From: Bradyrhizobium sp. SZCCT0148
GTDB lineage: Bacteria; Pseudomonadota; Alphaproteobacteria; Rhizobiales; Xanthobacteraceae
Reading direction: 5' to 3'
NCBI RefSeq assembly: GCF_018129985.1
Contig: NZ_JAFCKT010000001.1
Coordinates: forward strand, 124,001-188,000
DNA length: 64,000 nucleotides
The notes beneath the pieces were generated by a model, which had not been told where the DNA came from, did not search any database, and saw only the letters and a list, made by a program, of their open reading frames with translations. The position numbers were made by a program, and so were the translations under genes. This document shows, piece by piece, positions 3,214 to 14,298 of this stretch (position 1 is the stretch's first letter; each line of letters starts with the position of its first letter).

Positions 3214-3591
3214 TCATGGGCAAGAGTGACGCAGGCCGTCATTGCCCAGATACGTTCCTGAGCCCGGATCGTAGGACCGATAGCGCTGCGCGCAATAGGA
3301 GGCGGCGTTGGATTGCGCCTGGCTATTGGCGATCGCGCCGCCGATGATTGCGCCCGCCGCAAGGCCGCCCAGAACGGCTGCGCCGCCACCACCGTAATGC
3401 CCGCCATGATGCCTGTGGCCATAGCCGTGGCCGTGGCCGTGTCCGTAGCCATGCCGGTACTGCACCTGCTGCACGCCTTGGTCGGGACCGGGATTCGCGA
3501 TCGGCATGGGCGCCGCGAGCACGGGTGAAACGGCCGTCGAGAGCATCGCTCCGGCGGCCGCAAGGGCGACGAACGTTCTACGCATTGTCAT
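3214..3591 (-). CDS. BA14K family exported protein
   Basis: A 125-residue exported protein. It starts at 3591 behind GGAG with six-base spacing; upstream ATGs at 3603 and 3636 lack such a site. A signal peptide (FVALAAAGAMLSTAVSPVLA) is followed by a histidine/glycine-rich stretch (GYGHGHGHGYGHRHHGG), a short hydrophobic glycine-rich segment (AAVLGGLAAGAIIGGAIA), and a C-terminal BA14K motif with CAQRYRSYDP and GTYLGNDGLRHSCP. BA14K proteins are known from Brucella as immunoreactive, lectin-like envelope proteins. The His-rich stretch could bind metal (inference). An exact EcfG-type promoter sits 33-57 bp upstream, suggesting general stress control. Confidence 0.88.
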   Translation of the reverse strand: MTMRRTFVALAAAGAMLSTAVSPVLAAPMPIANPGPDQGVQQVQYRHGYGHGHGHGYGHRHHGGHYGGGGAAVLGGLAAGAIIGGAIANSQAQSNAASYCAQRYRSYDPGSGTYLGNDGLRHSCP

Positions 3592-3623
3592 GTCGGGCTC
3601 CATGTTGTCGAGGATGCAGGAGC

Positions 3624-3648
3624 AACGGCCGCTCACCCGCTCCGTTCC
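3624..3648 (-). promoter_or_regulatory. EcfG-type general stress promoter for the BA14K gene
   Basis: On the minus strand GGAAC (3648-3644), exactly 16 bases, then CGTT (3627-3624). This matches the EcfG consensus of alphaproteobacteria at every position. The transcript would start near 3617, about 26 bases before the ATG at 3591. Confidence 0.7.
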
Positions 3649-3883
3649 TCTTGATGCGAGGCGAGCGTCACAGCGTCGCAGAAAATGAAAGGTTCGTAAG
3701 GATGTCGCTCGACTGGCTTCGCCGGGGCCGACGCCATTGCTCGGCGTGGCCCTCGGGGTTCCCGATCATTGATCTGAAACAATGATGATTCCGACCACCA
3801 ATGCTAGAAGGATTCGCAAGTCGCGACTCACGGCTCCCGGCCGGTCGCGACAATCGCAACGCGCGCTGGAATCCGAGGGCTGA

Positions 3884-4549
3884 ATGGGACGACTGCTGAA
3901 TATCGTGACGCCGCTGCATACGGCGACCAAGCGCGACTACATGGGGCGCATGAACGACGACAAGATCGGCTGCTCGCTCAAGGCGCGGGAATACGAGGCC
4001 GATTATTGGGACGGCGACCGCCGCTTCGGCTATGGCGGTTACCGCTTCATCGAGGGGCGCTGGGCGCCGGTCGCCAAGGCCCTGATCGAGACCTATGGCC
4101 TGAAGGACGGCTCCAGCGTGCTGGACGTCGGCTGCGGAAAGGGTTTCCTGCTGTACGAGATGCAGAAGATCCTGCCGGGCCTGAAGGTCACCGGCTTCGA
4201 TATCTCCAAGCACGGCCTTGCCAATTCGCATGAGCAGGTGAAGCCCTATCTCTTCAACTATCGCGCCCAGGACATCTACCCCTATGGCGACGACAGTTTC
4301 GATCTCGTCATCTCACTCGGCACCCTGCACAATCTCCGGCTCTATGAGCTCGAAGCGGCGCTCAAGGAGATCGAGCGGGTCGGCAAGAACAAATACGTCA
4401 TGGTCGAGGGCTACCGGACCGTCGCCGAATTGCACAACCTCGAATGCTGGGCGCTGACTGCGGAATCCATCCTGCACACGTCGGAATGGATCTGGCTCTA
4501 CGGCAAGCTCGGCTACACCGGCGATTACGAATTCATCTATTTCGAGTGA
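3884..4549 (+). CDS. Class I SAM-dependent methyltransferase
   Basis: A 221-residue protein with the Rossmann methyltransferase core. Motif I is VLDVGCGKGFLLYEM near residue 83, an acidic strand end follows in VTGFDISKHGL, and motif IV is FDLVISLGTLHNL. The substrate is unknown. The gene ends 13 bp before the alcohol dehydrogenase gene, so the two very likely form an operon. I suspect a role in making an unusual sugar or polyol, since such pairs occur in surface-polysaccharide loci and an exopolysaccharide cluster follows, but this is inference. A 7-bp inverted repeat (ATCATTG/CAATGAT, 3765-3786) lies about 100 bp upstream. Confidence 0.85.
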   Translation: MGRLLNIVTPLHTATKRDYMGRMNDDKIGCSLKAREYEADYWDGDRRFGYGGYRFIEGRWAPVAKALIETYGLKDGSSVLDVGCGKGFLLYEMQKILPGLKVTGFDISKHGLANSHEQVKPYLFNYRAQDIYPYGDDSFDLVISLGTLHNLRLYELEAALKEIERVGKNKYVMVEGYRTVAELHNLECWALTAESILHTSEWIWLYGKLGYTGDYEFIYFE

Positions 4550-4562
4550 TCGGGCGCGCCTC

Positions 4563-5606
4563 ATGGACATCAAGACTGCCAAGGCCGCCATTCTCGTCGA
4601 GTCGGGCAAGCCGCTGATCGTCGACGAGTTCACCTTGCCGGACACGCTCGAGCATGGCCAGGTGCTCGCGCACGTGCACACCTCCAGCATCTGCGGCGCA
4701 CAGATCAACGAGATCGACGCCGTCAAAGGCGTCGACAAGTTCCTGCCCCACCTTCTCGGACACGAAGCGCTGGCCACGATCGTCGAAACCGGTCCCGGCG
4801 TCGTCTCCTGCAAGCAGGGCGACACCGTCGTCATGCATTGGCGGCCGGGCAAGGGCATCCAGTCCAACACGCCGGCTTATTCCTGGCGCGGCAAGCGCCT
4901 CAATGCCGGTTGGGTCACCACCTTCAATGAATATGCCGTGGTGTCGGAGAACCGTGTCACGCCGGTTCCCGCCACGATCGACCGCACCAGCGCCCCGCTG
5001 CTCGGCTGCGCGGTGACGACCGCGCTCGGCGTCGTCAACAACGACGCGCAGATCGCCATCGGTGAAGCCGTCGTCGTGTTCGGCGTCGGCGGCGTCGGCT
5101 TGAACATCGTGCAATTCGCCGCGATGGTCGGCGCTTATCCGGTCATTGCGATCGACCGCCTCGACAACAAGCTGGCGATGGCGAAGGACTTCGGCGCCAC
5201 GCACACAATCAACTCCGACGCGGTCAAGGACGTGGCCGCGGAAGTTCGCGCCATCACCGGGGCCGACGGGCCCGACAAGGTTGTCGAGACCACCGGCGTC
5301 AAGAATCTGATCGAGCTCGCCTACGAGATCACCGCAAAGAAAGGCCGCTGCATCCTTGTCGGCGTTCCCCGTGAGAAGGCCGAGATCTACACGCTGCCGC
5401 TCCATTTCGAGAAGGTGCTGAAGGGCTCGGAAGGCGGCCAATGCCAGCCGGCGCGCGACATTCCGCGCCTCGTGCGCCTGAGCGACGCCGGCAAGGTGAG
5501 CTACCGGGGCATCGTGACTCACGAATTCGCGCTCGACGACGTCAACGACGCGCTCGACCTGATGCGCAGCGGCACCTCGGGCCGGATCCTGCTGAACATC
5601 AGCTAG
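4563..5606 (+). CDS. Zinc-type medium-chain alcohol dehydrogenase without the structural zinc loop
   Basis: A 347-residue MDR-family dehydrogenase. Catalytic zinc ligands are visible as C44 (SSICGAQ), H67-E68 (LGHEAL) and C149 (LLGCAVTT). The NAD(P)-binding glycine motif GVGGVG is at 174-179. The four-cysteine structural zinc loop normally found near residues 95-110 is absent and replaced by MHWRPGKGIQSNTP. It should oxidise an alcohol or polyol, or reduce the matching carbonyl; the substrate is unknown. It lies 13 bp after the methyltransferase gene and is probably co-transcribed with it. Confidence 0.87.
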   Translation: MDIKTAKAAILVESGKPLIVDEFTLPDTLEHGQVLAHVHTSSICGAQINEIDAVKGVDKFLPHLLGHEALATIVETGPGVVSCKQGDTVVMHWRPGKGIQSNTPAYSWRGKRLNAGWVTTFNEYAVVSENRVTPVPATIDRTSAPLLGCAVTTALGVVNNDAQIAIGEAVVVFGVGGVGLNIVQFAAMVGAYPVIAIDRLDNKLAMAKDFGATHTINSDAVKDVAAEVRAITGADGPDKVVETTGVKNLIELAYEITAKKGRCILVGVPREKAEIYTLPLHFEKVLKGSEGGQCQPARDIPRLVRLSDAGKVSYRGIVTHEFALDDVNDALDLMRSGTSGRILLNIS

Positions 5607-5930
5607 CGCTGCAGCAGATCACGGACGGGGTGCAGCGTTATCCGGGCTACGAATGCGAGCTGCTGGAAAATGGCTTCCTGATCGGCCGCTCGGCACTGCC
5701 GATGGCCCGGAGATCGAAGCCTTACGGTCCTGCCTGCTCGGCGATGCCCGGCCCGCGCGGTCGGCGCCATCGACGGCGTTGCTGGTCGTCGCGAGGCCGG
5801 GCTCGGCACGCTGGCCATCCAAGCCGTCCTTTTTCCGCTTGAACGGGCCAATTCACAGGCCTTCCGGTTTCGCGTCCCTCCCGTAACCGCCGGTTAACCA
5901 TGGATATTTACGGTGTAGCAAGCCTCCGAG
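5607..5930 (+). other. 324-bp intergenic region without a recognisable gene
   Basis: The first ~130 bp keep an open frame continuing with sensible codon use (QQITDGVQRYPGYECE, then ENGFLIGRSALPMARR), with no start codon or ribosome site. It may be the remnant of a lost gene but I cannot name it. The last 50 bp before 5931 contain GGTTAACC and an AT-richer stretch likely to hold the promoter of the exopolysaccharide cluster. Confidence 0.4.
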
Positions 5931-8135
5931 ATGGGGCAGTCAGTTGATTTCGAGTCCAATCCCATGGCGTTCGGTCGAAGCGCATCTCCGCGAAGCATCG
6001 CCCCGACGGAGCCAGCGGCTTCGTGGGAAGCGCCGCGGGCTGCGCGGACGAATCCCGAGAGCGCCGCGCCCGCGCTGATCAAGGGCTCGCTGACCGTCTC
6101 CGGAGCTCTCGCTTTCCTGCGGGAGAACGGCCGGCGGATTCTGACGTTGGCGCTGGCGTTGTTCGCCCTCGGCATCATCGTCCTGATGGTTCTGCCGGTT
6201 CGGTACGCCGCAACGGCCTTGGTCGTGCTCGATCCCCGGGAATTGCGTGTCACCACGGAGCAGGACGTCTTGCCGGGCATCGGCCAGGACGCCGCGGCGC
6301 TTCAAAGCCAGATCGAGATCGCCAAATCGGACGGCTTTCTCCGTCCCCTGATCGAACAGCTCAAGATCGCCGATGACGATGATATCTCGGGCGGTCATAC
6401 CGACATGACGCGCCTGCTCGAGAAGTTCCGCAGTCGCCTCGAGATCACGCGGCGCGGGCTCACTTACGTCGTCGCGATTTCCTTCACCTCGAACCGCCCC
6501 GAGCGGGCCGCCTACTATGCCAACGCCATCGCCGCGGCGTTCGTCGCCAGCCAGGGCCGTGTCCGTACCGAGGCCACGGACGAGGCGGCGGACTGGCTCC
6601 AGGACCGGCTGAAGGCGTTGAGCGAGCGCCTGCGCGCATCGGAAGACGCCGTCGCCGCCTTCAGGCTCGAGCATAAGATCCTCAGTGCCGGCAAGGATTC
6701 GACCACCCAGCAATTGCGGGTGACCGATCTCAATCAGCAGGTTTCCGCCGCCCGCGCGCGCACCGAGGAAGCCAAGGCGCGCTACGAGCAGGTGCAACGC
6801 GATCTCAAGGCCAATGTCGAAGGTCCCGTGAAGCAGGACCTCCTGAGCATGCTGCGCGCGCAACGCTCGACCCTGAACGACCAGATCGCGCAGAAGAAGG
6901 CGGTCTATGGCGATCGCCATCCCGATCTCGCGATCTCCTACAGCCAGCTGGCGGATATCAACCGGCAGATCGAGGTCGAGCGGAAGAAGAACATCGATAC
7001 TGCCAAGTCCGAATACGAAGCTCAGCGGGAACAGCAGAACGCGCTGGAAAAGCAGCTCAAGGCGGTCGAGACGCAGATGCTGGTCGACGGCCAGGCGCTG
7101 GTGAAGCTGCAGGAGCTGCAGCGCGACGCCGATGCCAACAAGAACATCTACGAGCAGTTCCTGTCGCGGTTCAAGACGACCAACGAGCAGCGCCAGCTGC
7201 AGAGCTCCCAGAGCAAGGTCGCCTCGCCCGCCATTCCGCCGTTGCGCTCGACCCGTCCGCCGCTCGCTCTGCTGCTGGCAGCGCTGATGATCGGATCGCT
7301 GTTGACGTCGACCGCTGCCGTCGCGGCGTTGACGAGCCTATCCGGCGGGCCCGCGCCTGCCGAGGCGGCCGTGCAGGCGGCTGAGGACCGGCAGGTCCCG
7401 CCTCGAGTCCCGCAGCAGGTCCAGCCTCAAGTCCAAACGCCGGCCGCCGTCGCTCCCCGGCCCGAGGCGATGCCGCGGCTTCCTGTCTGGGCCCGCATTC
7501 CCGATCTGGCGTCTGCGTCCGGGACCGCGACCAGCACCGTCTGGCAGCGACCGATCGCTGCTCCGGCCGAACTCGATCTCGGTCCGTATCTGCGGCCGCT
7601 GCTCGAGCGGATCGATCGCGTACCGGTGCGCGGCTGCAAGGTCGCTCTGGTGCTGTCGGTCGGCAAGAGCGCTGGCGGCAACACCGTTGCGCGTTCACTC
7701 AATCGTGCCGCCGTGAACAGGGGCATGATGAGCGTGCTGATCCGGCTGCAGGGGGAATTCGCAGGACACCAGCCGCCGGTGACCGAATGGAACGACGGCT
7801 CGACCACGGCGGGACTTCAGTCGATCGACGAGCTTCTCAGCGCCGGCCGAAAGGCCGATGCGAGGCCTGAGGACGATATTCGTTCGGAGTTCGACCTGAT
7901 CATCGTCCATGCCGGCAATCTCGCCTTGCAGCCGGATGCGATCGCGCTGGCCGCGCATGCCGACCTGATCGTCCTCGTGGCGCGCGCCGGCGAGCTCGGG
8001 TCGGCGGCGATGCGCCGGGTGACCGCGGCGCTGTCGCGCTATAGGACCGTGCCGATGGGGCTCGTTGTCAATCACGCGCCAGCGGATTCGACGACGCCTC
8101 ACCCCGAGGGCGGCGCATTGGGCCTTGCGGTTTGA
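5931..8135 (+). CDS. GumC/Wzc-like polysaccharide chain-length protein with degenerate kinase domain
   Basis: A 734-residue protein. A cytoplasmic leader is followed by TM1 near 69-90 (ILTLALALFALGIIVLMVLP), a Wzz domain with YAATALVVLDPRE, a long periplasmic coiled coil (about 220-430), TM2 near 444-467, a proline/glutamine linker, and a C-terminal P-loop-like domain from about 565. The latter reads VLSVGKSAGGNTVARSLN where a bacterial tyrosine kinase would have a Walker A motif, and there is no tyrosine cluster at the C-terminus, so it is probably catalytically dead. Role: control of export and length of an exopolysaccharide at the inner membrane. The next gene starts at its stop codon. Confidence 0.88.
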   Translation: MGQSVDFESNPMAFGRSASPRSIAPTEPAASWEAPRAARTNPESAAPALIKGSLTVSGALAFLRENGRRILTLALALFALGIIVLMVLPVRYAATALVVLDPRELRVTTEQDVLPGIGQDAAALQSQIEIAKSDGFLRPLIEQLKIADDDDISGGHTDMTRLLEKFRSRLEITRRGLTYVVAISFTSNRPERAAYYANAIAAAFVASQGRVRTEATDEAADWLQDRLKALSERLRASEDAVAAFRLEHKILSAGKDSTTQQLRVTDLNQQVSAARARTEEAKARYEQVQRDLKANVEGPVKQDLLSMLRAQRSTLNDQIAQKKAVYGDRHPDLAISYSQLADINRQIEVERKKNIDTAKSEYEAQREQQNALEKQLKAVETQMLVDGQALVKLQELQRDADANKNIYEQFLSRFKTTNEQRQLQSSQSKVASPAIPPLRSTRPPLALLLAALMIGSLLTSTAAVAALTSLSGGPAPAEAAVQAAEDRQVPPRVPQQVQPQVQTPAAVAPRPEAMPRLPVWARIPDLASASGTATSTVWQRPIAAPAELDLGPYLRPLLERIDRVPVRGCKVALVLSVGKSAGGNTVARSLNRAAVNRGMMSVLIRLQGEFAGHQPPVTEWNDGSTTAGLQSIDELLSAGRKADARPEDDIRSEFDLIIVHAGNLALQPDAIALAAHADLIVLVARAGELGSAAMRRVTAALSRYRTVPMGLVVNHAPADSTTPHPEGGALGLAV

Positions 8136-8137
8136 CG

Positions 8138-9277
8138 ATGACAGCATCGCTGCGTCGTCGGCTGGCTGCTGCGACGCTTCTCTCGATCTCGTTCGGTCCG
8201 TCGGCCTTCGCCGACACTTGCGTACCCGTTCCGCAGACGGTCGCGCCCGTGAGGCTTGCCGCACTGTCCCGCGGCTTCAATGCGGACGGCTGGATCAACG
8301 GCGAGGTGCCAGGTCGCGAATTGCTGCAGCAGTTGCGCCTGGCCGGAATGAGTCACGTCCGGCTGCCGGTGCCGGCCGAGCGTGTGATGCCGCGTTTCGC
8401 ATCGCCGGTCGAGCGCGACGGGACGCTGGCTGTGCTCGACAAGGCGCTGAAGCAGCTCACTGCGCTCGGCTATGCCATCTCCGTCGATCTTCACCCCGGC
8501 GAGCGCTTCAACCGCCTGCACAAGGAGGATCCGGAGGCGGCGCTGCGCGAGATGCAGGAGGCCTGGCGCAGCCTCGCGGGACCCATGCGCTCCTATCCGG
8601 CCGATCGAATCTTCGCCGAGCTGCTCAACGAGCCCGATATCGACGCCGACACATGGCAAAGGCAGGCCGAGTCGCTCGGCGGCTTCGTGCGCAAATTGCT
8701 TCCCGCCAACACGCTCATCGTCGGTCCGGTCAACTGGCAGCGCGCGGACTCGCTGCCGCGGTTTCGTCCGCTGGACGATCCTGACGTCGTCTATGCCATC
8801 CACTTCTACGATCCCATGGTGTTCACCCATCAGGGCCATTGGGATGCGCAGGATCCGCTGCACGACATCATGGACCTGCCTTATCCGATCGATGCCGGCG
8901 ATCCCAAGGTTCGCGCAATCCGCCAGGATCTGCAGGCGAGGGGGGCGACCAAGGCGCTCGGCATGCTCGATACTGCGATTGCCGCCGCCCGGGACAAACC
9001 GGGCGCCGATCGCTGGCTCGCGCCCGCGCTTGCGTGGCAGCGGCAGTTCGCGCGGCCGATCATCGTCAACGAATTCGGCGTGCTGAAAGCCGGCGCGCCC
9101 AGACAGGCCCGGCTGCGCTGGCTGGCGGAGGTCACCGCTTACGCCCGCGACCATTGCTGGGGCTGGACGCATTGGGAGCTGGCGCAGGGCTTCGGCCTCG
9201 TCGACCGCAGCACCGGCAGGCCCGATCCCGACGTGATGCGGGCGCTGCTTGGCACGGCGCGGCCCGGCCGGCGCTGA
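8138..9277 (+). CDS. Glycoside hydrolase family 5 (cellulase-like), exported
   Basis: A 379-residue protein with a signal peptide ending in PSAFADT. The GH5 acid/base glutamate is in FAELLNEPD (about residue 165) and the nucleophile glutamate in IIVNEFGV (about residue 312), with catalytic-barrel signatures GMSHVRLPVP and AISVDLHPGE between. It should cut a beta-1,4-glucan-like polymer in the periplasm. Placed between a chain-length protein and a polymerase-like membrane protein, it probably trims or releases the polysaccharide made by this cluster, as BcsZ or ExoK do elsewhere (inference). A TTG at 8132 in the same frame overlaps the previous stop and could also start translation. Confidence 0.88.
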   Translation: MTASLRRRLAAATLLSISFGPSAFADTCVPVPQTVAPVRLAALSRGFNADGWINGEVPGRELLQQLRLAGMSHVRLPVPAERVMPRFASPVERDGTLAVLDKALKQLTALGYAISVDLHPGERFNRLHKEDPEAALREMQEAWRSLAGPMRSYPADRIFAELLNEPDIDADTWQRQAESLGGFVRKLLPANTLIVGPVNWQRADSLPRFRPLDDPDVVYAIHFYDPMVFTHQGHWDAQDPLHDIMDLPYPIDAGDPKVRAIRQDLQARGATKALGMLDTAIAAARDKPGADRWLAPALAWQRQFARPIIVNEFGVLKAGAPRQARLRWLAEVTAYARDHCWGWTHWELAQGFGLVDRSTGRPDPDVMRALLGTARPGRR

Positions 9278-9360
9278 CATCGCGCCGGTTCGCTATCGTT
9301 AACGCATCGTTACGCATCACCCCGCTATCGTGCTCGCCGCGCGATGCCAAAGGACGATCG

Positions 9361-10920
9361 ATGAGCGCCGGGGACTTGACCCAGGATCAGAGCGTGCAGG
9401 CCGTGAGATTGCCGCCGGCCTGGCGCGAGCTGGCTGTGACGTTCTGCATCGCCGTGGCCGCGATCGGCTTTGTGCCGGTCCTGCATCTGGCCAATCCGGC
9501 TCTCGGCATTGTCGTCGAGGTGTTCGTCGGCATCGCCATCGTGCTGGCGGTCCCCACCTGCGCGCCTGCCATCGCGATCTTCGTCCTGTTCTTCCAGAAC
9601 CTGTTCGTCTCGATCCTGTCGCCGCTGGTTCCGCTGCCGTCCGATCTCGACTTCATCAAGGGCTACAATTTCCTCGTCTGCTCCGTGATGTGGCTGGCGA
9701 CGTTCGGTCTCTACGTGCTGGGCCAGCGGAATCAATCAACCGAGGTGAACCGGATCATGCGCTGGGGTGTCGTCACCCTCGCCGTGGTGTCGCTGTATTT
9801 CGCGATCGGCTTCGTCCAGGACGGACAGCCGGCGGCGGTCTATCTGCGCAATATCGTGCTGCCGCTGTTCCTGTTCCAGCTTTCGCTGCTGACCGCCGCG
9901 ACCTACGAGATGCGCATCACGCCTTTCCTGGTGACGCTTGCGGTCATCCTCATGCTGTGCGGCTACGTCGAGTTCGCCTTCCGCGATGTCTGGCTGGCCA
10001 TCACCAACAGTTATACGTTCTGGGGTTTCGACGAACTCAAGGCGACTCACTCGGGTGTCTGGGAAGCCCAGATGCGGGCCACCGGCAACGTGCCCGTCGA
10101 TCTCAAGGACCGCTTCAGCTTCGACTTCCTGAACACGCCCCTGCTCGAAGGCTTCGGCCTGTCAAAGATGCTGCGCATCAACGGTCCGAACATGCACCCG
10201 ATCAGCTTCGCCTACGGGCTCGCCTTTCTCACCTTGTTCCTGTTTTCGGTCGGACGACCGCTGCTGGCCCTCGCCGCGTTGCCGCTGCTGGTCTTCTGCA
10301 GCGTGAAGGGCGCGCTCATTACGGTCATCTTCGTGGCCGCAGCCTGGATCGGGACACGTCTGATCGGCGCCGTGACGACGTTGTTGCTCGGCTTCCTCGG
10401 CATGATCGCCTTTGCAATTCTGGCGATCCGCCTCGGACTTCAGATCGGCGACTATCACGTCATCGGGTTGATGGGTGGTTTGGACGGATTCGTGCAGAAA
10501 CCCTTCGGCCGCGGCCTCGGCATCGGCGGCAATTTGGCAGATAGCTATTTCTCCATCGACTGGAGCGCCGCGCAGGCCGCGGGGACGATCGACGGCGCGG
10601 TCGAGAGCGCGATCGGCGTTCTCCTGTACCAGATGGGCGTTGGCGCCTTCGTGCCGTTGGCCTTCTATTTCGCGATGGCGCTCAAGGCCTGGCGCCTCTA
10701 CGCGTCGTCGGGCTATCTGACGCAGGGGCTCGCAGGCTTCGGCGTCATGGTCGTGCTGCTGAATGGATTGTTCCAGGAAGAGGCTCTGTTCGCGCCGCTC
10801 GCGCTCGGACTGATGTTTTCCCTCACCGGTCTCGTGATCGGCAGCCATGTGCGCATGCAGGGCGTGGCAAGCGAGCGGGCTGAAATCGAACATGCCGCGC
10901 ATTATCAGCCGATAACCTAA
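9361..10920 (+). CDS. Polytopic membrane protein, O-antigen ligase/polymerase-like
   Basis: A 519-residue protein with about ten or more hydrophobic segments, for example CIAVAAIGFVPVLHLAN, VVEVFVGIAIVLAVP and TTLLLGFLGMIAFAILAIRL. A large hydrophilic loop sits between about residues 215 and 280. The layout resembles Wzy/O-antigen ligase proteins but I see no strict Wzy_C motif, so the call rests on topology and position after a GumC-like protein and a GH5 enzyme. Start 9361 gives an N-terminus MSAGDLTQ; the frame is open far upstream but that part overlaps the GH5 gene in another frame. Likely polymerises or ligates the exopolysaccharide repeat unit. Confidence 0.72.
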   Translation: MSAGDLTQDQSVQAVRLPPAWRELAVTFCIAVAAIGFVPVLHLANPALGIVVEVFVGIAIVLAVPTCAPAIAIFVLFFQNLFVSILSPLVPLPSDLDFIKGYNFLVCSVMWLATFGLYVLGQRNQSTEVNRIMRWGVVTLAVVSLYFAIGFVQDGQPAAVYLRNIVLPLFLFQLSLLTAATYEMRITPFLVTLAVILMLCGYVEFAFRDVWLAITNSYTFWGFDELKATHSGVWEAQMRATGNVPVDLKDRFSFDFLNTPLLEGFGLSKMLRINGPNMHPISFAYGLAFLTLFLFSVGRPLLALAALPLLVFCSVKGALITVIFVAAAWIGTRLIGAVTTLLLGFLGMIAFAILAIRLGLQIGDYHVIGLMGGLDGFVQKPFGRGLGIGGNLADSYFSIDWSAAQAAGTIDGAVESAIGVLLYQMGVGAFVPLAFYFAMALKAWRLYASSGYLTQGLAGFGVMVVLLNGLFQEEALFAPLALGLMFSLTGLVIGSHVRMQGVASERAEIEHAAHYQPIT

Positions 10921-10944
10921 AGCCCGCCTCAGATGGCTGTCGCA

Positions 10945-10969
10945 GGAACTTCCGCTTTTTCCCGGCGTT
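10945..10969 (+). promoter_or_regulatory. EcfG-type general stress promoter for the 11006-11696 genes
   Basis: GGAAC (10945-10949), 16 bases, CGTT (10966-10969): a full match to the EcfG consensus. Transcription would start near 10976, about 30 bases before the ATG at 11006. Confidence 0.72.
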
Positions 10970-11005
10970 GATCGTGCTCGCCGCAAAAAGGGGCCGGTCC
11001 TGGCC

Positions 11006-11224
11006 ATGAAAAACTTTTCCAACGCCGCATTCTCTCCCGACGTGATCGCGATCATGACGGGCGCCCTGGAAGCCGCGGTCGCGAGCCTTCCTGAGCCCGT
11101 GCATTCCTCGCATGTCACCACGCTCGCCGAATCCATCCTGCGCACCGCCGGTGCCGGCGAGCGCAATGCCGCTGACCTGCAGAGGATCGCCCTGATGGAG
11201 CTGCAATTGATTCCGCGCGCGTGA
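11006..11224 (+). CDS. Small conserved-type hypothetical protein (72 aa)
   Basis: A 72-residue soluble, helix-rich protein without a signal peptide. It has patterns such as VIAIMTGALEAAVASLP and a terminal MELQLIPRA. I do not recognise a named domain. It stands directly behind an exact EcfG-type promoter and 10 bp before a small exported protein gene, so it is probably the first gene of a stress-induced operon. Codon use (G/C at third positions) matches real genes around it. Confidence 0.65.
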   Translation: MKNFSNAAFSPDVIAIMTGALEAAVASLPEPVHSSHVTTLAESILRTAGAGERNAADLQRIALMELQLIPRA

Positions 11225-11234
11225 GGGACCGAAC

Positions 11235-11696
11235 ATGAGGACCACATTTGCCGCCGCTATCATCGCGTTGCTCGCCACGCTCTCGGCTGCGCGCGCGGAA
11301 AGCTGGACAACGTACCGGATCCCTGAAGCGGGAACATCGGTGGATATTCCCTCGTCGCTCTTTACGGAGCTTGCCGGCAAGCCCGACGGCCTGGGCCAGC
11401 GGTTTCAGACCGCTGATGCTCGGGCCGATCTTACCGTGCAGACTGTTTCCAACAGCGAAGGTCTCTCGCCGTCCGCATTCCTTGCCAGGAAGGGGCCACC
11501 TGCCGGCATCATCTACAAGCGTATAACCCCGAAGTTTTTCGTCGTTTCCAGCATCAGGCGCGACAAGATTTGGTACAACCGCTGCAATTTTTCACGCGGC
11601 TATGTGCATTGCGTGCTGATCAATTACCCCGCCGCCGAGAAGCGGCAATGGGATGGCGTGGTCACGCGGGTCAGCCATAGCCTGAGCGCCAACTGA
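11235..11696 (+). CDS. Small exported hypothetical protein (153 aa)
   Basis: A 153-residue protein with a clear signal peptide (FAAAIIALLATLSAARA, cleavage before ES). The mature part begins with WTTYRIPEAGTSVDIPSSLF, a pattern seen in periplasmic proteins of unknown role in this group. It carries two cysteines (NRCNFSRGYVHCVLIN) nine residues apart that could form a disulfide. It follows the 72-aa gene by 10 bp and should be expressed from the same EcfG-type promoter. Function unknown. Confidence 0.75.
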   Translation: MRTTFAAAIIALLATLSAARAESWTTYRIPEAGTSVDIPSSLFTELAGKPDGLGQRFQTADARADLTVQTVSNSEGLSPSAFLARKGPPAGIIYKRITPKFFVVSSIRRDKIWYNRCNFSRGYVHCVLINYPAAEKRQWDGVVTRVSHSLSAN

Positions 11697-11701
11697 ACTA
11701 C

Positions 11702-11737
11702 GCAAAGAAAAAGAGCTGCCCGAACAAGTCGGGCAGC
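11702..11737 (-). terminator. Rho-independent terminator of the low-complexity protein operon
   Basis: Perfect 9-bp stem GCTGCCCGA / TCGGGCAGC (11715-11723 with 11729-11737) around a 5-base loop. Read on the minus strand it is followed by CTTTTTCTTT. It ends the minus-strand operon 12 bp after its last stop codon. Confidence 0.88.
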
Positions 11738-11749
11738 AGGGCCGTGAGG

Positions 11750-12184
11750 TTAGCGTGCGGTCGTCGATGTCGTCGACATCGTCGGCTTCGAGCCCGGCAC
11801 ATGCGACATCGTCTTGGTCGTCGAGCCGACCTCTTCACCAGCCTTGACCTTGGTGCGGGTATGCGAGCGGCTGAACGTGCCGCCCTCATGGGCCTGCGCC
11901 CGGGCGTTGGAGTTCATCACGGGGCCGTTGCCCTTGTTCGTGCTGACGCCGGTCTGCGCCTTGCCATCGACGGCAGCGGCGCTTCCGCCGGCCGCGATCG
12001 ACGAGCCGGTGCTGCCGTTCGCCGAGGTGGAGGTCCCGCCGGTGCCGACCGTCGAGGCGGAGGTGCCGCCTGCCGCGGCCGAGCCGCCGCTTCCGCCCGT
12101 GACGCTCTTCTGCGCGAGAGCCGGGGAGGTGGCGGCAAGCAGAGCTGCAATTGCCGCGGTCGCGAATATCGTTCTCATGTTCAA
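11750..12184 (-). CDS. Exported Gly/Ser/Thr-rich low-complexity protein (144 aa)
   Basis: A 144-residue protein with signal peptide (ATAAIAALLAATSPALAQ) and a mature part rich in Gly, Ser, Thr and Ala, including TVGTGGTSTSANGSTG. It ends in a threonine/serine-rich basic tail. Start 12184 is supported by GAGG seven bases upstream. It shares the VGTGG element and composition with the gene at 12614, so the two are probably diverged relatives. It is the last gene of a three-gene minus-strand operon closed by a strong terminator. Function unknown; a surface or matrix role is a guess from composition. Confidence 0.75.
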   Translation of the reverse strand: MNMRTIFATAAIAALLAATSPALAQKSVTGGSGGSAAAGGTSASTVGTGGTSTSANGSTGSSIAAGGSAAAVDGKAQTGVSTNKGNGPVMNSNARAQAHEGGTFSRSHTRTKVKAGEEVGSTTKTMSHVPGSKPTMSTTSTTAR

Positions 12185-12199
12185 TCCTCTCGATGAATC

Positions 12200-12553
12200 T
12201 TAGGGGGACGAGGTCGAAATCGTGCAGCCGTTGACCGTGATGGTGCTGGCGCTGGTCGAGCCCGGCCCGCCTGCGGTCGAGGACGAGCTGGAGACGTTGC
12301 CGCCGCCCGCCTGCACATGCACCGACGATCCGCCGGCCGAACTCGAGCTTGAAAGCGAACCGCTTGAGGCCGTCGAACCGGTCGTGCTTGAACCCGATGA
12401 GCCGACCGCGGTGATGCTGCCATCGGCATGTTTTTCGACCGTGACCTTGCAGGTCTCGCCTGATGCCGTCTTGCCGGTCTTTTCCATGGTGGTTGCCTGA
12501 GCAGCGCCGGTCATCAAGCTCAACGCTGCGATCGCAATGATTGATCTGTTCAT
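12200..12553 (-). CDS. Exported Ser/Gly-rich protein (117 aa)
   Basis: A 117-residue protein starting at 12553 behind GGAGG; an ATG 36 bases further upstream lacks support. Signal peptide IIAIAALSLMTGAAQATT. The N-terminal mature part TASGETCKVTVEKHADGSI has a folded look. The rest is serine/glycine-rich (SGSLSSSSSAGGSS), and a final TITVNGCTIS supplies a second cysteine, so an intramolecular disulfide closing the chain is possible. It is the middle gene of the three-gene operon. No named family recognised. Confidence 0.72.
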   Translation of the reverse strand: MNRSIIAIAALSLMTGAAQATTMEKTGKTASGETCKVTVEKHADGSITAVGSSGSSTTGSTASSGSLSSSSSAGGSSVHVQAGGGNVSSSSSTAGGPGSTSASTITVNGCTISTSSP

Positions 12554-12613
12554 GCGAGTTCTCCTCCAACAAAGACGAAGGAGCGGCATCGCTGCCGCTC
12601 CCGGGTCAAGGCA

Positions 12614-13150
12614 TCAATCCTTGTCCTTCTTCATCTCGCCCTTGTTGTGGCCCTTGCCCTTTTCCATGCCCATGTCGCTGGCATGACCCGCAGACGAGCC
12701 GGCCGCACCGACCGTCGATCCGCTCTTGCCGTCGCCAGCCGAGGAACCGCCGGTGCCAACGGTCGATGCGGAGTTGGAGCCGCTGCCAGCCGCCGAGCCG
12801 CCGGTGCCGACGCTGGACGAGCTCTTGCCGCCGCCGGCCGATGAGCCGCCGGTGCCGAGCGTCGAAGCCGAGCCGCTGCCCGATCCGCTGCCGGCCGCGG
12901 AGCCGCCCGTGCCGACGCTCGAGCTGCTGGTGCCGCCGCCCGCCGACGAGCCGCCGGTGCCGAGCGTCGAGGCCGATCCGCTGCCAGATCCGCTGCCGGC
13001 CGAAGAGCCACCGGTACCCACGGTCGAGCTGCTGGTGCCGCCGCCCGCCGACGATCCGCCGGTGCCGACGGTCGAGCTCGATTGCGCAACGGCAAGCGCG
13101 GTGCTGGCCAACAGTGCGGCCGCGGCCGCAGAAAGCTTCAGGATCCTCAT
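12614..13150 (-). CDS. Exported protein with eight TVGTGGSSAG-type decapeptide repeats
   Basis: A 178-residue protein starting at 13150 behind GGAGGAG. Signal peptide ILKLSAAAAALLASTALAVAQ. The mature chain is almost wholly eight copies of (T/S)(V/L)GTGGS(S/A)AG, joined alternately by 6-residue (GGTSSS, GGKSSS) and 7-9-residue (SGSGSGSAS) linkers. A final 23-residue tail is rich in Met, Lys, Asp and His (EKGKGHNKGEMKKDKD). No named family is recognised. It is the first gene of the operon. The repeat length and composition suggest an extended, flexible or fibrous secreted chain. Confidence 0.8.
   Translation of the reverse strand: MRILKLSAAAAALLASTALAVAQSSSTVGTGGSSAGGGTSSSTVGTGGSSAGSGSGSGSASTLGTGGSSAGGGTSSSSVGTGGSAAGSGSGSGSASTLGTGGSSAGGGKSSSSVGTGGSAAGSGSNSASTVGTGGSSAGDGKSGSTVGAAGSSAGHASDMGMEKGKGHNKGEMKKDKD
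12686..13072 (-). repeat. Tandem repeat coding for eight decapeptides; 105-bp higher-order unit
   Basis: Copies 1, 3 and 5 of the decapeptide start 35 codons (105 bp) apart, and copies 5 and 7 start 33 codons apart. The array is therefore a two-decapeptide unit repeated about four times. The last copy has decayed to TVGAAGSSAG. Confidence 0.85.
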
Positions 13151-13202
13151 GTCATCTCCTCCAGGGTTTTTCAAAATCAGATTGCCAAATCAGGCTCGGG
13201 AT

Positions 13203-13227
13203 AAAGTGGCAATCAGGCAAACGTTCC
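13203..13227 (-). promoter_or_regulatory. Possible EcfG-type promoter of the low-complexity protein operon (imperfect)
   Basis: On the minus strand GGAAC (13227-13223), 16 bases, CTTT (13206-13203) against consensus CGTT. The 12-mer GGAACGTTTGCC here recurs exactly at 13897-13908 in front of the 26-aa protein gene. Distance to the first ATG (13150) is 52 bp. Confidence 0.4.
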
Positions 13228-13393
13228 AACGGTTGTGCACGTTGGTGCATTTTGATCGCCCGCAGCGGAGCTCACCGCACCTGCAGCGATGCGCGTTGGT
13301 TCGCGTTCATCCTGCATTCATCCGCACGAAGTGCGCACCGCTCTTGCGCCGCGTTCCCGCGACGTAGTTAGTTCACTCAGAATGCGTCGATCG

Positions 13394-13780
13394 TTACTCG
13401 ACGATCGCAGAGCGCAGCGCAGCTGCCGAGCTGGCAGTGCGACTGGAACGCGCAGGCGTTGCGTGGCTCGGGCTCAGTCGAGGTTTGTGCGCAATCTCGG
13501 ACGTCTGCCCCGCTGATTCCGCCGACGCCAACGCCTGGCTTGCAGCGCGGTTTGAGGCCTCTGAGACAAGCAGATCCCATGATGTCTCCATCGCAACCAT
13601 GCTTGACGTGTCCAGAATGATCTTCTCAGGCAGGGCGCGCGCGGAATGGATGCGAATGACCGATCGGTCGACACCAGCGCCAGCGGAGACATCGTTGAGT
13701 GGAGGCAAACTGCGGTCGAGCGCGAACAGCAACGCCGCGACGAATGCACTTGCGAACACAAGGTAGCGAATGATGGGCAT
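13394..13780 (-). CDS. Small membrane-anchored hypothetical protein (128 aa)
   Basis: A 128-residue protein with one N-terminal hydrophobic segment (YLVFASAFVAALLFAL) that may be an uncleaved anchor or signal. A hydrophilic part follows, ending in a Ser/Ala/Arg-rich tail. No family recognised. An exact EcfG-type promoter lies 83-107 bp upstream, giving a leader of about 75 bases. The ribosome site in front of the ATG is weak. The gene points away from the low-complexity operon's promoter region and is divergent from the 26-aa protein gene. Confidence 0.6.
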   Translation of the reverse strand: MPIIRYLVFASAFVAALLFALDRSLPPLNDVSAGAGVDRSVIRIHSARALPEKIILDTSSMVAMETSWDLLVSEASNRAASQALASAESAGQTSEIAHKPRLSPSHATPARSSRTASSAAALRSAIVE

Positions 13781-13862
13781 CAGGAATTGACCGCGAGATG
13801 GAGGAAGCGCGACTGCGAGCCGAGCCGCTTCTCCACGGTCTGCCGCATGCGGTGCTGCGATG

Positions 13863-13887
13863 AACGCGGCACCGGCCTGCCCGTTCC
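13863..13887 (-). promoter_or_regulatory. EcfG-type general stress promoter for the 128-aa protein gene
   Basis: On the minus strand GGAAC (13887-13883), 16 bases, CGTT (13866-13863), a full consensus match. It lies back to back with the plus-strand near-match at 13897. Confidence 0.65.
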
Positions 13888-13896
13888 GCCGATAGG

Positions 13897-13921
13897 GGAA
13901 CGTTTGCCACTTTTTCCTGTT
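13897..13921 (+). promoter_or_regulatory. EcfG-like promoter for the 26-aa protein gene
   Basis: GGAAC (13897-13901), 16 bases, TGTT (13918-13921), one mismatch to CGTT. The ATG at 13957 is 35 bases downstream. Confidence 0.5.
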
Positions 13922-13956
13922 TTGCTACCGGGAGCAGCTGATTGGAGGAGAGGAAG

Positions 13957-14037
13957 ATGCCCATTTTGATTCTCTGGGCCGTGCCCGCCATCCTGGTCGT
14001 CGGCGGCGGCATTTATCTCATTGGACACATGCACTGA
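13957..14037 (+). CDS. 26-residue single-span membrane protein
   Basis: ATG at 13957 is preceded by the very strong ribosome site GGAGGAGAGGAAG. The frame reads MPILILWAVPAILVVGG, then GIYLIGHMH and TGA at 14035. Almost the whole chain is one hydrophobic helix ending in His-Met-His. It lies behind an EcfG-like promoter and just before a 14-bp perfect hairpin, so it is framed like a complete one-gene transcript. Short stress-induced membrane peptides of this kind are known in other bacteria; no family name can be given. Confidence 0.7.
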   Translation: MPILILWAVPAILVVGGGIYLIGHMH

Positions 14038-14044
14038 ATGCGAA

Positions 14045-14078
14045 GGCCCCGGTTTCGATGATGGTCGAAACCGGGGCC
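14045..14078 (+). terminator. Strong hairpin after the 26-aa protein gene
   Basis: Perfect 14-bp stem GGCCCCGGTTTCGA / TCGAAACCGGGGCC with loop TGATGG, starting 7 bases after the stop codon. There is no U-tract, so it may stabilise the 3' end or act as a weak terminator. Confidence 0.6.
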
Positions 14079-14298
14079 GCAGCCCGCCTGGCTTGGCGTC
14101 GGTCGATGCGTCAGCCGCACGGCCTCCGGATTTCTTATCTTGATTGCGCCGTTAGCCGTCGGCGCCACGTTCAGGCGCTTAGGCGATTTGCCGTTACACG
14201 CAAGTATCTACGACGCAGGATGAGCCCTGGCCCGCTTCCGCACGGCCTCTGGTTCGCCCGCTTGGTCGAACTCCGCAGGGAGCGCGGAGCGTCTCAAA

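Follow-up and report, generated by a model that had tools for sequence, protein, structure and literature searches.

Putative EcfG-type promoters conserved in front of small, mostly undescribed genes of Bradyrhizobium

The promoters to which the sites described below can best be compared are those of EcfG (ECF15), the extracytoplasmic function (ECF) sigma factor of the alphaproteobacterial general stress response. According to the literature, which was available to us in excerpts for the papers cited by PMC number, the promoter motif of Rhizobium etli EcfG1 is GGAAC-N16-CGTT (PMC3892343), and that of Sphingomonas melonis EcfG is GGAAC-N17-20-GTT, with targets that include the -10 variants CTTT and AATT (PMC6599016). 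Most of the general stress targets of Sinorhizobium meliloti RpoE2 have no predicted function (PMC6180224), and the EcfG regulons of these species are described as including numerous hypothetical targets as well as a small protein predicted to be secreted. Within Bradyrhizobium, a genus of nitrogen-fixing symbionts, efficient symbiosis with soybean depends on the general stress response, and more than 100 genes have been reported for the sigma-EcfG regulon of B. diazoefficiens (PMC8092242). Here we examine a stretch of 64,000 nucleotides (nt) from Bradyrhizobium sp. SZCCT0148 (contig NZ_JAFCKT010000001.1, positions 124,001 to 188,000; hereafter the window), in which five EcfG-type sites stand in front of genes for small proteins. 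The locus shares its motif, and the genome its PhyR-NepR-EcfG core, with the R. etli, S. melonis and S. meliloti systems, and B. diazoefficiens represents the same cascade in the same genus. Unlike those regulons, the set of genes found here comprises a pair encoding proteins of 72 and 153 amino acids (aa), three low-complexity genes and a 26-aa peptide that lack a Pfam or NCBIfam model; the 26-aa and 72-aa families are, moreover, nearly confined to Bradyrhizobium in the genomes sampled.

We regard it as highly probable that the five sites (Table 1) are promoters of the EcfG-dependent general stress response that drive these units; the assignment is supported by motif, spacing and conservation. 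All five contain the GGAAC typical of the -35 region of EcfG promoters, and -10 elements of the form NGTT follow at a distance of exactly 16 bases (N16) in all four of the sites at 3624, 10945 and 13863 (CGTT) and 13897 (TGTT). The initial annotation had reported three exact and two near matches with an identical 16-base spacing, and each of them was recovered where it had been placed and with that spacing. In the window as a whole, three CGTT and seven NGTT matches occur at N16, and none of either kind at N13 to N15 or at N17; if one mismatch is tolerated, the window contains 25 matches, while shuffled windows have a mean of 12.2 and none of them reached 25. Every site lies on the correct strand and close upstream of a gene with orthologues in relatives, the distance from the first base of the -35 element to the start codon being 57 nt (3624), 61 nt (10945), 77 nt (13203), 107 nt (13863) and 60 nt (13897).

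Table 1. Features of the window discussed in the text (positions are those of the window; calls of signal peptides and membrane segments rest on inspection by eye throughout, without a predictor)
Feature	Position	Strand	Basis or remark
Exported BA14K-family protein, 125 aa	3214..3591	-	Pfam PF07886, E 3.6e-14; export by eye
EcfG-type promoter GGAAC-N16-CGTT of BA14K gene	3624..3648	-	exact match
EcfG-type promoter GGAACTTCC-N-TTTTTCCC-GGCGTT of 72-aa/153-aa unit	10945..10969	+	exact match
72-aa protein, no signal peptide apparent	11006..11224	+	no Pfam/NCBIfam match
153-aa exported protein, predicted PsbP/Mog1/DcrB-like fold	11235..11696	+	AlphaFold, Foldseek
Intrinsic-terminator-like hairpin 3' of low-complexity gene 3	11715..11737	-	terminator scan
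Low-complexity protein 3, 142 aa	11750..12178	-	same 14/20 relatives
Low-complexity protein 2, 117 aa, putative operon member	12200..12553	-	same 14/20 relatives
Terminator-like hairpin between low-complexity genes 1 and 2	12602-12579	-	terminator scan
Low-complexity protein 1, 178 aa, Gly/Ser/Thr repeats, apparent signal peptide	12614..13150	-	no Pfam match
Dyad GATTGCCA...TGGCAATC over -10 and leader	13180..13214	.	read from sequence
EcfG-like promoter GGAAC-N16-CTTT of low-complexity genes	13203..13227	-	near match
128-aa protein, N-terminal membrane segment	13394..13780	-	orthologues in relatives
EcfG-type promoter; of DUF1236-type gene in relatives, of 128-aa gene here	13863..13887	-	exact match
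EcfG-type promoter of 26-aa gene, GGAAC-N16-TGTT here	13897..13921	+	near match
26-aa hydrophobic microprotein MPILILWAVPAILVVGGGIYLIGHMH	13957..14037	+	28 homologues
15-bp hairpin after 26-aa gene, possible transcript end	14045..14078	+	ViennaRNA -34.6 kcal/mol (14038-14090)

The number of sites in the window is in itself weak evidence, and we therefore place the main weight on phylogenetic footprints. Among 30 loci encoding homologues of the 153-aa protein (window included), GGAAC-N16-CGTT is present at most 310 nt upstream in 27 and the TGTT form in one, and of 26 upstream regions that were aligned, 25 retain GGAAC-N16-NGTT although the flanks of the motif are not alignable. Four of the 30 loci have no match to the 72-aa protein; in three of these the site stands 50-74 nt directly before the 153-aa gene. 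The 72-aa family was followed through 63 loci in titled genome records (58 from Bradyrhizobium and five from others, after a Prescottella locus with an E-value of 3e-4 had been dropped from 64), and within 200 nt upstream of it the exact N16 motif was found at 36, the N17 form at two and another NGTT variant at six; in 11477 random windows the exact N16 motif occurs in 0.35% and the loose one in 0.92%. At the BA14K promoter both elements are invariant in all 11 aligned rows, which comprise the window's own sequence and those of 10 relatives in which no fewer than 430 of the 507 bases are matched (the other 19 of 30 loci match part of the region). The promoter of the low-complexity genes retains GGAAC in 15 of 15 rows, with N16 in 14 and N17 in one and a -10 element of the form [ACG]TTT; six of 20 relatives were excluded from this alignment because they have no orthologue of low-complexity gene 1. 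Of the two divergent sites, that at 13863 has the form GGAAC-N16/17-AGTT in all 12 relatives examined, and that at 13897 retains GGAAC at 14 of 14 orthologous loci (window included), combined with N16-CGTT in eight, N16-TGTT in two (one being the window), N16-NATT in three and a spacing of N15 in one. When placements of the promoter template were ranked by conservation, the sites came first among 185 (10945), 296 (3624) and 247 (13203) placements, and fourth (13863, minus strand) and twelfth (13897, plus strand) among 276 at the divergent pair, whose alignment includes coding sequence.

The genome-wide scan that the initial annotation had proposed, covering 7.17 Mb on 42 contigs, returned 96 exact N16 sites compared with 42 at N17. 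Pooled over all spacings from N10 to N22 there are 598 sites (a start with two spacings may count once), which corresponds to a background of about 42 per spacing without N16, or about 0.37 per 64 kb, in good agreement with the 0.4-0.5 matches that had been estimated beforehand. In this genome N16 thus exceeds the per-spacing background approximately 2.3-fold. Of the 96 exact sites, the 30 at the head of the list were examined, and 14 of these are followed, 20-72 nt downstream, by a motif resembling a ribosome-binding site together with the start of an open reading frame (ORF) of at least 50 aa, whereas this is true for 623 of 9052 random positions (6.9%; binomial P 2.7e-9) and for two of 13 sites of other spacings. 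One of the 14 downstream proteins is the BA14K protein of the window; a family scan of the other 13 revealed a ferritin/Dps-like protein, a DUF3072 protein and two DUF1236 proteins, a DUF883 protein with a score just under the cut-off, an AI-2E-family transporter, a CHASE3 histidine kinase, a pyrroloquinoline quinone (PQQ) dehydrogenase and five proteins without a family. Dps and DUF883 proteins are typical products of stress genes.

Exact sites are also clustered. Four triples within 10.3 kb exist in the genome, compared with 0.82 expected from random placement (P for at least four, 0.018), and they occupy three places: the cluster in the window and two regions of contig C1 at 477-485 kb and 1150-1157 kb. 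The latter two (C1:477921-485477 and C1:1150129-1156807) contain three or four exact sites each, near genes for DUF883 and DUF3072 proteins, an AI-2E-family transporter and small exported-looking proteins. The suggestion of a local envelope regulon hence holds insofar as EcfG-type sites are clustered here; the cluster is not unique, and with similar clusters elsewhere it is better viewed as part of a dispersed regulon.

PhyR, NepR and EcfG are encoded in one locus of this genome, as judged from the domains NepR (PF18557), PhyR (PF22029/PF22233 plus receiver) and sigma r2/r4. A control search with GGAAC-N15..18-GTT found no match at the phyR/nepR locus. Inspection of the sequence showed that phyR and nepR-ecfG have divergent promoters of the GGAAC-N16 type whose -10 elements deviate, being CGTA for phyR and AATT for nepR in this genome and CGTA/CGTC and [AC]ATT, respectively, in the genus, where GGAAC-N16 is kept in 20 of 20 rows (of the 24 loci fetched, 19 are the relatives in the alignment, one belongs to the genome itself and four gave short matches). 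A simple pattern therefore misses sites that are probably genuine. These promoters and the S. melonis EcfG targets also make the 13203 site, with its CTTT, plausible albeit weaker than the other four.

Several observations weigh against the EcfG assignment, and part of them would fit chance matches that are conserved merely through close kinship. GGAAC-N15..18-CGTT occurs three times in the window, on each occasion with N16, and shuffled windows give a mean of 1.38 matches for these pooled spacings and reach three or more in 14 of 100 cases. The reversed pattern, used as a genome-wide control, yields 100 (N16) and 80 (N17) matches against the 96 and 42 of the true one, and N16 exceeds this control in just six of 25 genomes of the genus. 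We prefer the other spacings as a control, since reversing the pattern preserves base content and not word context, and since at N17, too, the reversed pattern occurs roughly twice as often. The sites at 10945 and 13863 fall outside the 14 with a gene start at the expected place, owing to a missing ribosome-site match or a start that is too distant, and of the window's exact sites only that at 3624 falls inside. The CTTT of the low-complexity promoter departs from NGTT, so that this site can be classed as EcfG-like only. Two of the 30 153-aa loci and 19 of the 63 72-aa loci, the latter mostly diverged copies, are without a site (for the 72-aa loci, N16/N17-NGTT within 200 nt); among 20 site-less 72-aa rows that were aligned, 12 have an alternative upstream block with GGGAAAATTAT or nearly so, which is preceded by GGAACGATT wherever the stretch reaches far enough. 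Finally, the rows for 3624, 13863 and 13897 were picked by DNA similarity spanning the promoter, which favours conservation; those for the 72-aa/153-aa and low-complexity promoters were found via the 153-aa protein. While the window shuffles and the reversed control alone do not reject chance, conservation and spacing do: relatives keep the sites, that of the 72-aa/153-aa unit even where the flanks differ, the template ranks are at or near the top, and the paralogous copies of the 26-aa gene described below carry the motif too. We accordingly consider a chance origin extremely improbable.

A different question is which sigma factor would be in charge. The promoters could be real and yet served mainly by another ECF sigma factor, for instance of the ECF26 type, or by several factors with overlapping specificity, as 17 putative ECF sigma factors have been counted in B. 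japonicum (PMC3420878) and as 27 targets of the S. meliloti ECF26 factor RpoE6 overlap the RpoE2 regulon, the motifs of the two being similar (PMC6180224); the deviating -10 element of the low-complexity promoter would be in line with this explanation. We judge it unlikely, because CGTT at a distance of exactly 16 bases is the R. etli EcfG motif (PMC3892343), and because targets of the ferritin/Dps and DUF883 types, as well as the excess of N16, are in keeping with a general stress response. A housekeeping or RpoE-like envelope stress response as the main regulator, with the general stress response as a side effect, would be compatible with the envelope-like appearance of the products. RpoE-type promoters likewise have GGAAC as their -35 element, with TCAAA as the -10 element; at the conserved position TCAAA is absent and NGTT or a near variant is found instead, which renders this explanation quite improbable. 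A search for sigma-70-like sites between 10800 and 14300 found none, a result that says little given that 0.5 would be expected by chance.

Under the preferred assignment to EcfG, stress would lead to phosphorylated PhyR, which would bind NepR and so free EcfG. RNA polymerase carrying EcfG would then recognize GGAAC and, 16 bases away, CGTT or a near variant, and transcription would start just downstream of each -10 element. The resulting short units would provide the BA14K protein, the 72-aa protein together with the PsbP-like 153-aa protein, the low-complexity proteins, the 128-aa protein and the 26-aa microprotein, most of which appear to be exported or membrane-bound and would probably strengthen or preserve the envelope under heat, osmotic stress or drying. 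We infer that EcfG recognizes these sites, that the genes are induced, that they form the units named and that the products act in the envelope; the last point is suggested by the apparent signal peptides, the membrane segments and a predicted fold. The genes had been portrayed beforehand as encoding small, mostly undescribed envelope proteins; they are indeed small, mostly without a family match, and several have an apparent signal peptide or membrane segment, but the 72-aa protein shows no export signal, so that not all of the products are envelope proteins.

The regulation proposed here is thus of a known kind, the EcfG general stress response, and the genes would be new members of it, although an earlier report of some orthologues is possible. 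Our literature search did not uncover a paper in which these genes are described as targets of EcfG, the genes being nameless and the target list of Gourion et al. 2009 lying outside its coverage. A search of the open literature for a list of Bradyrhizobium EcfG targets found none, with EcfG not mentioned in PMC10454721, and in the excerpts covered no link of BA14K or DUF1236 to EcfG was found for Bradyrhizobium; a DUF1236 gene of Rhizobium phaseoli is described as strongly induced by aluminium stress (PMC8909678). Conservation yields a short list of small candidate stress genes that keep their promoter across many Bradyrhizobium species, among them a 26-aa peptide under coding selection, and each of these genes can be deleted singly.

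The 72-aa protein is 69-87% identical to the other members of a 20-row alignment, and its nearest named record, from Bradyrhizobium sp. MOS003, is 99% identical. A wide distribution of the family was considered and is ruled out by its presence in nine of 249 genomes of the order and three of 111 genera. Twelve diverged 72-aa loci share an upstream block GGAACGATT-n-GGGAAAATTATGCAAT, in most cases followed by a TGTGTC...GACACA dyad. The low-complexity promoter and the diverged 72-aa copies had given rise to the idea of a separate promoter class, GGAACNNTT-N13-WTTAT; this pattern has 37 matches in 21 of 40 genomes, compared with 13 for the reversed control, and since 15 of the 37 belong, judged by sequence, to the two known contexts and the rest are scattered, no general class was seen.

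The Pfam scan of the 153-aa protein returned no match. Its AlphaFold model, built from 20 sequences (predicted local distance difference test, pLDDT, 82.4; predicted template modelling score, pTM, 0.74), most closely resembles PsbP in a Foldseek comparison with the PDB (E of about 2e-5, template modelling score 0.5-0.6), and DcrB was retrieved with an E-value of 1e-3. The protein is predicted to be PsbP/DcrB-like at the level of the fold only; the likeness to the PsbP/Mog1p/DcrB proteins does not extend to the sequence, which is 7-18% identical in the 26 best-ranked hits. Weak relatives (23-30% identity) are found inside longer exported-looking proteins, encoded by ORFs of mostly about 480 codons, in many Bradyrhizobium genomes; five of these were inspected, and each has a 153-aa-like middle part, the remainder looking peptidoglycan-binding-like and trypsin-like by eye.

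The exported protein behind the 3624 site scores 52.9 bits against a curated cut-off of 26 and is thus a BA14K-family member behind an exact EcfG-type site. On the 5' side of its -35 element (approximately 3660-3720, minus strand), most of the 11 rows share a conserved stretch CATCCTTACGAACA-TTCATTTTCTGCGAC, which perhaps serves as an activator site. The ORFs at 5931-10920, which separate the BA14K gene from the remaining sites and by eye resemble genes for polysaccharide chain-length determination, a glycosidase and a polymerase or ligase, are not preceded by an exact GGAAC-N15..18-CGTT.

The products of the low-complexity genes are all Gly/Ser/Thr-rich, and their orthologues in 14 of 20 relatives fetched are 79-98% identical, which is unusual and, for low-complexity sequence, surprisingly strict. 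The earlier picture of a low-complexity operon behind an EcfG promoter stands with regard to the conserved GGAAC and is weakened by the degenerate -10 element and by the hairpin between genes 1 and 2, which may limit read-through, so that a single operon of three genes is not certain; the region contains seven terminator-like sites against a shuffle mean of 3.2. The dyad GATTGCCA...TGGCAATC is perfect and spaced, is largely conserved in the 14 relatives, and may be the binding site of a second regulator.

At the divergent pair, the pairing of the 13863 promoter with the 128-aa gene, as first proposed, is correct for this genome. In 12 of 12 relatives examined, the gene behind this promoter encodes an exported-looking protein of 114-115 aa whose start lies 62-63 nt from the first -35 base; all twelve proteins resemble one another, and a family scan of one of them identified it as a DUF1236 protein (E 1.7e-19). 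Orthologues of the 128-aa protein (45-54% identical) are present in 10 of 20 relatives fetched, beyond the DUF1236-type gene. As this gene is missing in the window, the 128-aa gene comes first behind the promoter here, which looks like a lineage-specific state among the genomes examined. DUF1236 genes also stand behind two other exact sites of this genome.

On the other side of the pair, the sums of pairwise differences among 28 homologues of the 26-aa gene (two of 30 loci yielded no peptide) are 1452, 162 and 3846 at codon positions 1, 2 and 3, respectively, a pattern that points to a peptide that is translated and under selection. The gene is perhaps unannotated in many genomes and may be missed by gene callers. 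A search of 198 genomes of the family detected the peptide in 11, of which nine belong to Bradyrhizobium and two to other genera; one of the latter records is possibly a contamination, since its peptide and promoter are identical to those of another genome. Of the 16 loci in this survey, 13 have GGAAC-N16/17-NGTT within 420 nt, but the control value of 16% is inflated because its samples contain the sites themselves and the pattern is loose, so that we base no conclusion on this comparison. Two further copies in this genome (C1:773106 and C13:46382) both follow a gene for an exported-looking protein of 75-77 aa (FYVVQD...), upstream of which stands GGAAC-N17-CGTT (C1) or the N16-TGTT form (C13). 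On the opposite strand at the C1 copy, a DUF1236-like gene, so named from its sequence, lies behind GGAAC-N16-GGTT. Of 14 copies that relatives carry away from the syntenic locus, 12 are preceded by GGAAC-N17-CGTT at a distance of 316-325 nt.

These arrangements may reflect, in a reading that we put forward tentatively and without quite favouring it, a divergent stress module that has been duplicated in Bradyrhizobium. Back-to-back EcfG-type promoters would drive an exported DUF1236-type protein on one side and, on the other, the 26-aa membrane microprotein, either by itself or downstream of an exported 77-aa YVVQD protein; the microprotein would serve the general stress response as a dedicated peptide of the inner membrane, perhaps tuning an envelope enzyme or sensor, and in the lineage of the window one copy would be without its DUF1236-type gene, leaving the 128-aa gene first. 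The hairpin that follows the 26-aa gene has no T-run and stands outside the list of terminator-like sites.

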